Shown piece after piece: positions 11,607-40,502 of a stretch of DNA of 43,856 nt. The notes under the pieces were generated by a model that worked only from the letters and a program-made list of their open reading frames with translations, searched no databases and was not told where the DNA came from. Position numbers and translations under genes: made by a program. The DNA lies in NCBI GenBank assembly GCA_919902445.1, contig CAKKQZ010000011.1, forward strand, positions 12,783-56,638, read 5' to 3'. Position 1 is the first letter of the stretch. Each line of letters starts with the position of its first letter. The DNA is from Omnitrophica bacterium GWA2_41_15. GTDB taxonomy: Bacteria; Omnitrophota; Gorgyraeia; Gygaellales; Profunditerraquicolaceae.

Positions 11607-12194
11607 GTGAATTTTGCCAATAAAATTTCTACATTTAGAATTTTAAGCGTTCCTTTTTTTATAGCATGCCTAATCTATTATTCTCCCGAAAGGACTTATT
11701 TTAGATTTCTTGCTCTGTTTATATTTATTTTGGGTGTTATCTCTGATGCTGTTGACGGATATATAGCAAGGAAATCAAAACAGCAGTCAAAAGCCGGGCT
11801 TGTCTTAGACCCTTTAGGAGATAAGTTACTGCTTATGAGCGCTTACATTTTTCTTTCTCAGCTTTCGCAGTTCCCTTTGAAGTTTCCGCTTTGGGTTATT
11901 TTTATAATCATAAGCAGGGATGCGATTATTCTTATGGGTACGGTGGTGATTTACATGGTAAAGCAGAATATTGAGATTTATCCTACGCGCTGGGGGAAAG
12001 TTACAACTGCGTTGCAGATGCTTTCAGTGATACTGGTTCTTCTTCAATTCAAACTATCATTTATATCCTGGTGGCTGGCGGTTATATTTACGGTTATTTC
12101 AGGTATAGATTATATAAAGAGAGGATTTAAGACGCTTTATCCCGCCTTCGCAGAAGACCACCCCGCCGGCGAGAGTGGATGTCCGCCACAATAA
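11607..12194 (+). CDS. pgsA: CDP-diacylglycerol--glycerol-3-phosphate 3-phosphatidyltransferase
   Basis: CDP-alcohol phosphatidyltransferase motif SDAVDGYIARKSKQQSKAGLVLDPLGDKLL; GTG start. C-terminal ~16 aa derive from a repeat. Confidence 0.92.
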   Translation: MNFANKISTFRILSVPFFIACLIYYSPERTYFRFLALFIFILGVISDAVDGYIARKSKQQSKAGLVLDPLGDKLLLMSAYIFLSQLSQFPLKFPLWVIFIIISRDAIILMGTVVIYMVKQNIEIYPTRWGKVTTALQMLSVILVLLQFKLSFISWWLAVIFTVISGIDYIKRGFKTLYPAFAEDHPAGESGCPPQ

Positions 12195-12256
12195 GTGGCG
12201 GACCCGCCATGAATTATGGCGGGTACATAAAGGTACTACGGGCATGCCCGTGGGGA
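12143..12256 (+). repeat. Family C palindromic composite: tandem hairpins TCCGCCAC..GTGGCGGA + CCCGCCAT..ATGGCGGG, then GGGCATGCCC
   Basis: Arms 12182-12189/12195-12202 and 12203-12210/12216-12223; GGGCATGCCC at 12240. Diverged copy at 26531-26665. Confidence 0.85.
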
Positions 12257-12898: not shown

Positions 12899-13130
12899 AT
12901 CCTTCGCTACAAGTCAAAAAAAGCTTTGTGTCGGGATCAATTCGGTTAAACAGGTTTATGTTAGCTATCGCTTCATAAGCCTGGGACTCATTTTAGAAAC
13001 CGCTTTCTTTTTAACGGGTTATACCATTGAAAGAGGGCTATATCGGATGTTATACTTTACTCGAGAGATAAATTTTTTTACGCTATTTTTATTCGTATCG
13101 TCCCCACCAGCCACGAGAAGGTAGGGGGGA

Positions 13131-19877: not shown

Positions 19878-19939
19878 TTAATGAGTGCATAACTTACGGA
19901 GTACTCGCTTGCGCTCGTTACGACGTAAGTTATTTGCAC
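19878..19939 (-). repeat. Family B bulged palindrome, copy B1
   Basis: GTGC-ATAACTTAC...GTAAGTTAT-TT-GCAC, flanked by TTAATGA (reverse of TCATTAA). Confidence 0.88.
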
Positions 19940-19947
19940 GAATTAAC

Positions 19948-19971
19948 CCAGCCCCTGCACGCGGGGGCTGG
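19948..19971. repeat. Inverted repeat CCAGCCCC/GGGGCTGG between family B copies
   Basis: 8-bp perfect arms 19948-19955 and 19964-19971. Confidence 0.75.
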
Positions 19972-19983
19972 GGAGGTTCGGTA

Positions 19984-20026
19984 GCATAACTTACAAACAC
20001 GTTTAGTGTGAGTAAGTTATCTGCGC
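19984..20026 (-). repeat. Family B bulged palindrome, copy B2
   Basis: GC-ATAACTTAC AA ACAC GTTTA GTGT GA GTAAGTTAT-CT-GCGC. Confidence 0.85.
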
Positions 20027-20060
20027 GAATTATTGAGTACATAAAGTTTCTATTAGCGAA

Positions 20061-20165
20061 ATCCCGTGTAAGCGGATGATCCCTGCATCTTGCTTTACAA
20101 GGGAACGGCGGGAGAAGTTCAGCCGCATCTTGTTTTCCTAAGGTAGTAGCGGGGAGGCCTTAGAC
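20061..20165. other. Unassigned structured-RNA-like intergenic segment
   Basis: Nested arms CCC/GGG, TGTAAGC/GCTTTACA, GATG/CATC, followed by CTAAGG/CCTTAG hairpin; no ORF. Confidence 0.35.
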
Positions 20166-20607: not shown

Positions 20608-22047
20608 ATGGAACTTTATAAATTAACCGCTCACGAACTTATCAAAAAATTAAAAAATAAAGAAACCTCTGCGCAAGAGATTTTATCTTCACTAACAATA
20701 AGGATTAAAGAAATAGATTCAAAAGTTAACGGCTATGTCAGGCGCTCGAAAGAAAATATGGACAGTCCCCTCGTTCGCTCCGAGAACGATTCTCACTCGG
20801 GGACAGTCCCTATTTCGGTTAAGGACAATATCTGCACAGAAGGCCTTAATACCGAATGTTGCTCCAAAATATTAGGCGGGTTCAATCCTCCTTACGACGC
20901 TACTGTAATCAAAAAATTAAAAGAGGCAGGCATGCCGATATTTGGCTTAAAGACCAATATGGATGAGTTTGCCTTTGGTTCATCTACTGAAAACTCTTCC
21001 TTCGGCCCTACCCATAATCCATGGAATCTGGAGTGTGTCCCCGGAGGCTCCTCAGGAGGTTCTGCAGCAGTAGTCTCAGCTGATGAAGCGATATGGGCAT
21101 TAGGCTCTGATACAGGAGGTTCTATCCGCCAGCCGGCAGCATTTTGCGGGGTTGTGGGCTTAAAACCTACTTACGGAAGGGTCTCTCGTTATGGTTTAAT
21201 TGCCTTTGCATCAAGCCTTGACCAGATCGGGCCCATTACCAAGGATGTGGAGGATTGCGCTCTATTGATGAATATTATCAGCGGTTATGACCCTAATGAT
21301 TCAACATCCTCAGATACCGATGTCCCTGATTATGCAAAAGCACTGGTAAATGATGTAAAAGGGATAAAAATAGGAATTCCAAAAGAATACTTTGTTCAAG
21401 GGCTAGACCCGGAGGTTAAGTCAATAATAGAAGAAGCTATAAATAAGTTAAAAACCCTTGGGGCTTCATCCAAAGAAGTATCTTTACCCCACACGCAATA
21501 CGCCGTTCCCGTATATTATATTATTGCAACGGCTGAGGCAAGTTCAAATCTTGCAAGATTTGACGGAGTGCAATACGGTTTCAGGTCTGGAGGGCTAACC
21601 CTCATTGAGATGTATAAAAAAACGCGCCAAGAAGGATTTGGCGAGGAAGCAAAAAGAAGGATTATATTAGGGGCTTTTTCCTTGTCACACGGCTATTACG
21701 ACGCATATTATTTACGCGCCTTAAAGGTCCGTACTCTCATAAAACAGGATTTTGACGCGGTCTTTAAAGATTTCGATTGTATTATTACCCCTACCTCTCC
21801 AACTGCGGCATTTAAAATCGGAGAAAAAGTGGCTGATCCTTTAAAAATGTATCTTTCTGATATTTACACGATATCCGTAAACCTGGCGGGGTTACCCGCG
21901 GTATCTATCCCATGCGGTTTTACTAAAAAAGGTTTACCCGTAGGATTACAAATTTTGGCCAAACCTTTTAACGAAGAAATGCTTTTCAGGGTTGCCCATA
22001 CTTATGAGGAAAATAGCGAATGGCATAAAATGAAGCCGAAGGTTTAA
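20608..22047 (+). CDS. gatA: Asp-tRNA(Asn)/Glu-tRNA(Gln) amidotransferase subunit A
   Basis: [11 protein letters not shown]..., [70 protein letters not shown]. Confidence 0.97.
20760..20812. repeat. Family A palindromic repeat inserted in frame in gatA
   Basis: GGACAGTCCCCTCGTTCGCTCCGAGAACGATTCTCACTCGGGGACAGTCCCTA; encodes [17 protein letters not shown]. Confidence 0.88.
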
Positions 22048-26543: not shown

Positions 26544-26665
26544 GACCACGTGTATGTATGTGTATGTCCGCCACAATACGTGGAGGATCCGCCATGAATT
26601 ATGGCTGAAATGCGAAGAAAGAGCTGCTTCGGGGGATGTCACTGGATGGGCAAGCCCGTGGGGGT
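26531..26665 (+). repeat. Family C palindromic composite, diverged copy over the tsaD stop codon
   Basis: CTTCGCATAAGACCAC, TCCGCCAC/GTGGAGGA, TCCGCCATGAATTATGGCTGA, GGGCAAGCCCGTGGGG; CTTCGCA (26534) / TGCGAAG (26611). Confidence 0.8.
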
Positions 26666-26708: not shown

Positions 26709-27158
26709 ATGCTTAGCGACGCTCAGATTATCTTTCGTTTAATTTTAAGCGTATTCTTAAGCGGATTAATAGGCCTTGAGCGCCAAATGCATAAGCGCAC
26801 AGCAGGCCTGCGCACCCACATATTAGTATCTATGGGTTCCTGTCTTATCATGTTGACATCCTTCTATGTTTTTGATATATATAAAGATAAAGCTTCCATA
26901 GACCCTGCGCGGATAGCAGCCGGAGTAATCACGGGTATAGGTTTCTTAGGGGCGGGCGCAATTATCAGGGACAGAGCAGAAGTAAAAGGTTTGACTACGG
27001 CGGCCAGTCTTTGGGTTGTTGCAGGCATAGGTTTAGCTGTGGGGTGCGGTTTTAGCAAGGCAGCTATATATTCAACTGTATTAACACTAATAATCCTTTT
27101 CCTTTTAAGGCGGCTGGAAAGCATTATATTTTTTGAAGATAAGGATACGCGCAGATAA
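26709..27158 (+). CDS. MgtC/SapB family membrane protein
   Basis: LSGLIGLERQMHKRTAGLRTHILVSMGSCLIML..., GVITGIGFLGAGAIIRDRAEVKGLTTAASLWVVAGIGLAVG. ATG 26709 with GGGAGG SD preferred. Confidence 0.93.
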   Translation: MLSDAQIIFRLILSVFLSGLIGLERQMHKRTAGLRTHILVSMGSCLIMLTSFYVFDIYKDKASIDPARIAAGVITGIGFLGAGAIIRDRAEVKGLTTAASLWVVAGIGLAVGCGFSKAAIYSTVLTLIILFLLRRLESIIFFEDKDTRR

Positions 27159-27203
27159 CTTACGTCGTAACGAGCGTAAGCGAGTACTCCGTAAGTTATG
27201 CGG
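27149..27203 (+). repeat. Family B bulged palindrome, copy B3 (contains the MgtC-like stop codon)
   Basis: GCGC-AG-ATAACTTAC...GTAAGTTAT-GCGG; loop nearly identical to the B1 complement. Confidence 0.88.
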
Positions 27204-27211
27204 TTGAACCT

Positions 27212-27263
27212 ATCCTTGATACGAAACGACGACATTTGAATTTGAATCTTACGTATCAAGGAT
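27212..27263. repeat. 12-bp perfect inverted repeat ATCCTTGATACG/CGTATCAAGGAT
   Basis: Arms 27212-27223 and 27252-27263; sits between B3 and B4. Confidence 0.88.
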
Positions 27264-27269
27264 TAATTC

Positions 27270-27319
27270 ACACATTGACTTACTCATACTGGCGTATTCG
27301 TAAGTCAAGTGTTCATTAA
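27270..27319 (+). repeat. Family B bulged palindrome, copy B4
   Basis: ACAC-A-TTGACTTAC TCATACTGGCGTATTC GTAAGTCAA-GTGT TCATTAA; part of a 62-bp identity with 32976-33037. Confidence 0.92.
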
Positions 27320-27330
27320 GGAGGTGTGGC

Positions 27331-30700: not shown

Positions 30701-30752
30701 AGGGACTGTCCCCGTCAAAGCTATTGGTTGTATAACCAGAGGGACTGTCCCT
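30701..30752. repeat. Family A palindromic repeat in the acsC-acsV gap
   Basis: AGGGACTGTCCCCGTCAAAGCTATTGGTTGTATAACCAGAGGGACTGTCCCT. Confidence 0.9.
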
Positions 30753-30790
30753 GAACAGATTTAATGAAAACTGTCCCGACCAAATAAACA

Positions 30791-32739: not shown

Positions 32740-32838
32740 AGGGACAGCCTTAAAACAGTTACGGGACACCTTCCATCAAAGCAATAAAAACAATAGCTCA
32801 ATGGAAAGTGTCCCGCCGATGAACAGGAGACTGTCCCT
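32740..32838. repeat. Family A nested palindrome downstream of acsV
   Basis: Outer AGGGACAG/CTGTCCCT; inner CGGGACACCTTCCAT/ATGGAAAGTGTCCCG (14/15). Confidence 0.88.
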
Positions 32839-32872
32839 CAATAATATAAGGGTTGCGGTGATAGATAAGTGA

Positions 32873-32917
32873 GGCCATAACTTATGGAGGCGTTTAGCCG
32901 ACATAAGTTATCTGGCC
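32873..32917 (-). repeat. Family B bulged palindrome, copy B5
   Basis: GGCC-ATAACTTATG GA GGC GTTTA GCC GA CATAAGTTAT-CT-GGCC. Confidence 0.87.
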
Positions 32918-32923
32918 GAACTT

Positions 32924-32979
32924 ATCCCGTTAGAAATTTTGCGTATTAATTATTGTCAATCTGGTATTTCTAACGGGAT
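32924..32979. repeat. 14-bp perfect inverted repeat ATCCCGTTAGAAAT/ATTTCTAACGGGAT
   Basis: Arms 32924-32937 and 32966-32979; sits between B5 and B6, positionally equivalent to 27212-27263. Confidence 0.9.
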
Positions 32980-32985
32980 TAATTC

Positions 32986-33035
32986 ACACATTGACTTACT
33001 CATACTGGCGTATTCGTAAGTCAAGTGTTCATTAA
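32986..33035 (+). repeat. Family B bulged palindrome, copy B6
   Basis: Identical to B4 over the 62-bp block; ends 10 nt before the acsD ATG. Confidence 0.92.
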
Positions 33036-36404: not shown

Positions 36405-36463
36405 TAGGGACAGCGACTATTTTTTCTGCGTATATTTACCTGAAAAAATAGTCGCTGTCCCTA
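36405..36463. repeat. 22-bp perfect palindromic repeat TAGGGACAGCGACTATTTTTTC/GAAAAAATAGTCGCTGTCCCTA
   Basis: Arms 36405-36426 and 36442-36463, between tilS and ftsH. Confidence 0.95.
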
Positions 36464-40318: not shown

Positions 40319-40448
40319 AGAAAAAGCCAGTATTGTTTACAGGGTTAGGCATTTGTTTATTTATCATCCCTGGCTAAAAATCCTCGCTTTAATACTGGCG
40401 ATTATAGTATGGCATTATGCCAGTGATGAGATAAGCAGGTTTAACTAA
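40311..40448 (+). CDS. 45-aa TM microprotein resembling the N-terminus of CdaR/YbbR
   Basis: Overlaps cdaA stop by 8 nt: MIKEKASIVYRVRHLFIYHPWLKILALILAIIVWHYASDEISRFN*. Absent from the ORF track because it is short. Confidence 0.6.
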   Translation: MIKEKASIVYRVRHLFIYHPWLKILALILAIIVWHYASDEISRFN

Positions 40449-40451
40449 TTC

Positions 40452-40502
40452 GCGCAGATAACTTACTCGCACTGTCGTGTTCGTAAGTTATGCGCTCATT
40501 AA
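40452..40502 (+). repeat. Family B bulged palindrome, copy B7
   Basis: GCGC-AG-ATAACTTAC TCGCACTGTCGTGTTC GTAAGTTAT-GCGC TCATTAA; ends 2 nt before the pdxJ ATG. Confidence 0.9.

Follow-up and report, generated by a model that had tools for sequence, protein, structure and literature searches.

Hairpin arrays in front of the bactofilin and cdhD genes

The window analyzed here, a 43,856-nucleotide stretch of Omnitrophica bacterium GWA2_41_15 (source genome of 1.29 Mb in 97 contigs), contains two arrays of hairpins, each immediately preceding a protein-coding gene. Locus 1 lies 5' of a bactofilin gene (Pfam Bactofilin PF04519) and locus 2 lies 5' of the gene for the CO dehydrogenase/acetyl-CoA synthase delta subunit (Pfam CdhD PF03599), whose closest relatives are found in Omnitrophota MAGs. 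At locus 1, a 5' hairpin (27155-27199) with 10-bp perfect arms (27155-27164/27190-27199) is followed by a middle stem, which is a perfect 12-bp inverted repeat (27212-27223/27252-27263), and by a block starting at 27260 that is common to both loci. Locus 2 comprises a 5' hairpin at 32877-32911, a middle stem formed by a perfect 14-bp inverted repeat (32924-32937/32966-32979) and the common block from 32976 onward. The block spans 67 nt at 97% identity, holds a 3' hairpin and stops directly 5' of the SD of the bactofilin and cdhD genes, and the two inverted repeats both start with ATCC and finish with GGAT. Folding z-scores of -5.7 and -9.1 indicate that these hairpins are not due to chance.

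We described the arrays using three modules, B, its inverted form A and a spacer stem S, and a covariance model of the B hairpin (R1) made from 23 sequences of the source genome, the E-values of which are rough. Locus 1 reads B-S-B. Its 5' B-type hairpin, with a long apical stem, matches the model on the + strand at 27150-27202 (21.3 bits) and overlaps at its start the stop codon of the upstream gene called at 26709-27158. The S stem (27212-27263, + strand) belongs to class S2, ATCCTTGATACG/CGTATCAAGGAT, which recurs elsewhere with compensatory arms (CTTGACACG/CGTGTCAAG and CTTGACGCG/CGCGTCAAG), and the 3' B hairpin (27264-27318, + strand, 80.8 bits) adjoins the SD and ATG (27331) of the bactofilin gene. 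Locus 2 reads A-S-B, with an A hairpin, TAAGTGAGGCC...GGCCGAACTT, matching the model on the - strand at 32867-32923 (44.2 bits), an S stem of class S3 (32924-32979, + strand; ATCCCGTTAGAAAT/ATTTCTAACGGGAT) and a 3' B hairpin (32980-33034, + strand, 80.8 bits) that adjoins the SD and ATG (33045) of cdhD. A preliminary description of this DNA had reported that the middle stems differ between the two loci while both pair perfectly, which we confirm. It had also placed the same B unit on both sides of the inverted repeat; the coordinates of that layout hold, but the 5' unit is direct at locus 1 and inverted at locus 2.

Three further places in the window match the model. A solo B hairpin (40446-40501, + strand, 82.1 bits) sits directly 5' of pdxJ (Pfam PdxJ), for which an in-frame ATG is found at 40490 or 40505. 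A reverse-strand array (19879-20075) consists of a module X (20025-20075), a B hairpin (19984-20024), an S4 stem (CCCAGCCCCCG/CAGGGGCTGGG) and a second B hairpin (19879-19945), with R1 matches of 37.1 and 50.3 bits and a match to X. A weak, degenerate B-like hairpin is present at 12938-12993 (+ strand, 27.3 bits).

Other small repeats share the window. A second palindrome family, based on GGGACWGTCCC, and a perfect 22-bp inverted repeat (36405-36463) are represented at 30701-30760, 32740-32840, 36405-36463 and 41224; the genome has four RAYT-type Y1_Tnp genes, for which these repeats are candidate REP elements. A third small hairpin repeat, GTCCGCCAC..GTGGCGGAC, is found at 12175-12220 and 26560-26605; similar GTCCGCC/GGCGGAC hairpins occupy the tips of A, B or S in relatives (L180, L184, L334 and L398), forming palindromes nested in palindromes. 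The Class A RNase P RNA at 1445-1876 is 432 nt long (model 367) and carries at 1649-1668 the palindrome GGGACAGTCCC, which matches repeats of the window at 20800 and 30741 and may represent a repeat that either entered an RNase P helix or grew on one.

Anatomy and spread of the hairpin family

The canonical unit is A-S-B, which is small, modular, made of hairpins only and devoid of genes. B is a conserved hairpin of about 55 nt whose stems covary and are interrupted by a 5' bulge and two internal TC/TC loops, and its consensus is roughly NAATTCGC.CA..ATAACTTAC TC NNAC TNNC GTNN TC GTAAGTTATG.GCTCATTN, closed by a covarying foot (TTAAT/ATTAA, TAAAT/ATTTA or TCAAT/ATTGA). A is the reverse complement of the B hairpin (TAAGTGAGGnC...GnCCGAACTTA), and S separates either A from B or one B hairpin from another. 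On the A strand, for example at 32867-32923, tandem GA/GA stands in place of both TC/TC loops and the apex reads GNNA, and some copies contain GCGAAGC, a very stable DNA minihairpin; these features may mark the strand that is recognized.

The B fold is supported by covariation in two sets of copies. Among the 23 own copies, 97.7% of the cells are paired, nine pairs show two-sided changes and 45 two-sided cells are observed versus 11.4 after shuffling. A second, independent set, comprising 61 copies of relatives whose alignment took no account of structure, yields 97.3% paired cells (88.0% shuffled; 19-42% in slid controls), 14 pairs with two-sided changes and 128 two-sided cells versus 31.9 after shuffling. 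In this alignment the foot reads NAATTCG...CTCATTN (NAATGAG on the other strand), and the outermost pairs are not constant but covary. Since covariation is strong in A and B, yet their orientation and asymmetric features (the 5' bulge and the two TC/TC loops) are kept, we favor selection for the folded shape of these two modules.

S follows different rules. It is separated from B by module X (CCCCGC..GCGGGATTTCGCTAATAGAAACTTTATGTGCTCAAT) in 23 of the 98 source-genome copies that have enough upstream sequence. Among the other 75, the stem terminates precisely at the B foot with 6 or more net pairs in 50 (null 45/294) and with 8 or more in 21 (null 5/294). In relatives, 65/104 copies have a stem with this end point and 8 or more net pairs, versus 1/264 shuffles, and 39 different 9-base arms are found. 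The source genome has a common class TCCCGC..GCGGGA, besides CCTTGAYACG/CGTRTCAAGG, CCCGTTAGAAAT, CAGCCCCTG and others. The preliminary description had proposed testing whether a perfect but sequence-variable inverted repeat precedes every copy of the block; this holds in general and not always. Copies without complementary arms, which had been put forward as its refutation, are a minority, namely X-bearing copies and solo B hairpins. Several S arms contain TTGACA; arms without this motif are equally common, and we rejected a promoter function for S.

The family is large and widespread. A 28-base pattern of the B hairpin returned 30 copies and its reversed control returned none; R1 gave 133 matches in the source genome, corresponding to 109 distinct places in 80 arrays. 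Matches were obtained in 45/58 relatives and, in a sample covering the phylum Omnitrophota and including other classes, in 172/286 genomes, with copy numbers of 0 to about 100 per genome that vary even among related species. The assemblies are MAGs, and genes were called using a simple hexamer caller. Contigs C19, C31, C34, C47, C64, C65, C91 and C92 of genome G000 end inside arrays, which seem to break short-read assemblies. At curated score, no Rfam 15 family matches the elements, and the window returns only tRNAs and RNase P. The literature naming Omnitrophota yielded no description of such repeats, and the family is apparently undescribed so far. Phage and plasmid collections gave no match to it, and neither type of vehicle was retained.

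Placement, occupancy and possible means of spread

The copies follow the stop codon of one gene and precede the SD or ATG of the next, and their 5' end often coincides with the TAA stop of the upstream gene. The orientation of the flanking genes relative to B is strongly biased in the source genome (++ 50, -+ 6, -- 6, +- 0) and in relatives (++ 64, -- 8, +- 1), corresponding to sense:antisense ratios of 50:6 and 64:8. In 49/68 arrays, the distance from the array 3' end to a start codon is at most 40 nt, versus 4/68 on the antisense side, and the distances peak at +3 and at +10 to +15. The ribosomal-protein operon of relatives harbors 18 matches versus 3.1 expected from genome-wide counts, an expectation that is somewhat low for the richest genomes as the genome-wide search scored the best 98 candidates per genome. 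At one locus (L309, about 1440-1513), the B hairpin lies directly 3' of an apparent tRNA gene, with the acceptor stem in place of S.

The strong orientation and the enrichment in translation operons could also be compatible with a cis-acting RNA function, in which a leader or intercistronic switch controlling translation would be under selection and S would be a tolerated variable stem. The adjacency to SD and ATG and the strong covariation agree with this explanation. We nevertheless consider it unlikely, given the sporadic occupancy of the elements. In a perfectly syntenic ribosomal-protein operon compared in 20 relatives, each genome has its own choice of occupied junctions. Across 27 genomes of one genus, ten species have a short rplS gap (n=23) with no element (for example tag|AAAGGAGTAACAGTA|atg), eight a filled one, one of these partially, and the rest other sequence; the rpmE gap (n=26) is empty in nine, filled in seven and occupied by other sequence in the rest. 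Filled gaps read ...CTCATTTAAAGGAG.... Occupation of only 8/23 species at rplS and 7/26 at rpmE, the diversity of the downstream genes (bactofilin, CdhD, PdxJ and ribosomal proteins) and the lack of a matching Rfam family all speak against a conserved regulatory role.

We next consider the elements as mobile, which is a reading of their pattern of occurrence because no transposase, integrase or reverse transcriptase is linked to the family. A classical MITE, mobilized by a DDE transposase and bounded by A and B as its terminal inverted repeats, would account for the inverted arrangement of B in A-S-B units, for the symmetrical ends (TAAGTGAG...CTCATTA) and for what looks like inversion of a whole element between loci L191 and L324. 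Comparison of filled and empty rplS and rpmE sites, made between species of one genus and not between strains, revealed no flanking or target duplication; moreover, the outermost bases are variable and covary, solo B hairpins exist and orientation is non-random, so that we regard this origin as improbable. The covarying outermost pairs, unlike the fixed ends of transposons, also count against the mobile-element reading as a whole.

REP/BIME/REPIN elements (PMC3733652, PMC2817692) likewise have short palindromes paired in inverted orientation about a spacer and occur in many copies, and RAYT-type Y1_Tnp genes, the Y1 transposases that would spread A and B as paired REPs, are common in these genomes. 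However, no R1 match was found in 33 RAYT (Y1_Tnp) loci and the copy numbers of R1 and Y1_Tnp are uncorrelated (Spearman -0.07): six genomes with 5-65 copies have no detected Y1_Tnp (one of them 98% complete), whereas seven genomes with 3-8 Y1_Tnp have 0-1 copies. The hairpins are about 55 nt long with covarying stems and have no GTAG/CGTC tag at their foot in the 61-copy alignment. The flank scan and the copy-number correlation therefore leave a RAYT/REP origin unsupported, and we deem it very improbable. Integron attC sites are recognized by structure; the consensus ends of the elements have no R boxes (RYYYAAC/GTTRRRY) and the elements reside in conserved operons instead of gene cassettes, so this candidate was rejected.

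The modular composition of the arrays, with small structured repeats, a variable number of middle modules and no gene of their own, is reminiscent of the BOX elements of Streptococcus pneumoniae (PMC3049150). BOX elements are over-represented between convergent genes and have fixed module sequences (PMC3049150), whereas here the flanking genes are co-oriented (0/62 arrays of the source genome and a single array in relatives lie between convergent genes), A is the inverted form of the B hairpin and the sequence of S is not fixed. The TAACTGA repeats of Beggiatoaceae also occur in many copies just 5' of start codons, including in ribosomal-protein operons, and sporadically across taxa, but are direct heptamers and not hairpins (PMC4679880). 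Judged by analogy of behavior, the closest published analogue is the mitochondrial double-hairpin element. Like the DHE of Allomyces and the RHE of sponges, the present elements are tandem intergenic hairpins with complementary stem substitutions, the occupancy of which differs between close genomes (PMC2800124). In contrast to these organellar elements, they belong to a bacterial phylum, enclose a free spacer stem between two mutually inverted hairpins, lie in sense orientation next to start codons and have inverted S loops.

Variation of the S stem and a putative mechanism

Elements compared at the same junction reveal how the stems change in place. Between rpsG and fusA, the same element in two species has two compensatory differences in B, and its foot is TTAAT/ATTAA in one and TAAAT/ATTTA in the other. 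In front of rpmE, the elements of two species are distinguished by a compensatory pair in S (ATCCCGCC/GGCGGGAT versus ATTCCGCC/GGCGGAAT) and by a nested stem in the S loop. Upstream of rplS, where we infer orthology from shared S sequence and synteny, three species (G326, G012 and G146) have one S in common and a fourth (G187) has a wholly different S, and the B tip of G146 has been exchanged for a different perfect stem, TTGATACTTGACA/TGTCAAGTATCAA, on the same foot.

S loops of 18-73 nt are found in both orientations within a genome, in four genomes, with identities as reverse complement of 0.97 (L348/L349), 0.92 (L324/L331) and 0.89 (L338/L342 and L016/L039, the latter being C11:45762/C65:3705). 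The last pair includes locus 2, the S loop of which is 0.89 identical as reverse complement, and 0.54 directly, to that of C65:3705 (L039), an array of the same genome with the same stem. The flanks of L338/L342 and L016/L039 keep their orientation, with A~A and B~B identities of 0.85 and 0.85 for L338/L342 and of 0.81 and 0.78 for L016/L039, versus 0.59-0.64 in cross comparisons, indicating that only S was turned over. Whole-element inversion suits L191/L324, so not every inverted loop is a flip of S only; as an explanation of all inverted loops it is rejected, since A and B stay in place at L016/L039 and L338/L342.

Template-switch evolution of RNA hairpins predicts one-step compensatory changes and full loop inversions (PMC8794818). 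S displays compensatory changes and loop inversions in keeping with this prediction. In rRNA, loop inversions are very rare and reach at most 7-8 nt (PMC8794818), compared with 18-73 nt in four genomes here. As the arms of S are nearly free in sequence yet usually perfect, and as S loops are inverted while their flanks are not, we favor regeneration of the S arms by template switching. The preliminary description had offered a selected hairpin and template switching as alternatives; both appear to apply to different parts of the element, template switching to S and a selected fold to A and B.

Taken together, these data make it probable, in our assessment, that the family consists of small non-autonomous mobile elements made solely of hairpins, with S perfected by hairpin-templated copying and A and B selected for shape. 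An enzyme supplied in trans would recognize A and B as a folded single strand of DNA or RNA, whereas S would need only to fold. A polymerase switching template inside the hairpin would recopy one arm from the other, thereby perfecting the arms, occasionally inverting the loop and producing apparently compensatory double changes in one step, so that S could drift freely and yet stay complementary. Small palindromes nesting in the S loop would supply new arms. Insertion inside essential operons may be tolerated because the hairpins would return the mRNA to its starting point, keeping the stop codon and the next SD and start codon close in the folded message.

For the DHE of Allomyces mitochondria, the absence of flanking duplications prompted the suggestion of an RNA intermediate (PMC2800124). 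A comparable route for the present family, in which folded intercistronic RNA would be copied back into transcribed operons in the sense direction and with no target duplication, and would survive as the fold keeps stop and start adjacent and translational coupling persists, appears rather unlikely to us. If true, a bacterial hairpin retroelement with a spacer stem rewritten by template switching would represent a new class of mobile element.

The family bears on the debate as to whether perfect stems result from selection on successive single changes or from one-step copying of one arm. Of the traces left by the latter, loop inversion is the most telling, and the long inverted loops lie beside conserved hairpins that keep their orientation and thus provide an internal control, making these elements a natural system for studying how hairpins are built and mended by errors of DNA copying. 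They also caution that covariation alone is no proof of RNA function. Finally, the presence of putatively mobile hairpins, throughout a phylum, in the operons with the highest expression bears on how much structured insertion an operon tolerates.
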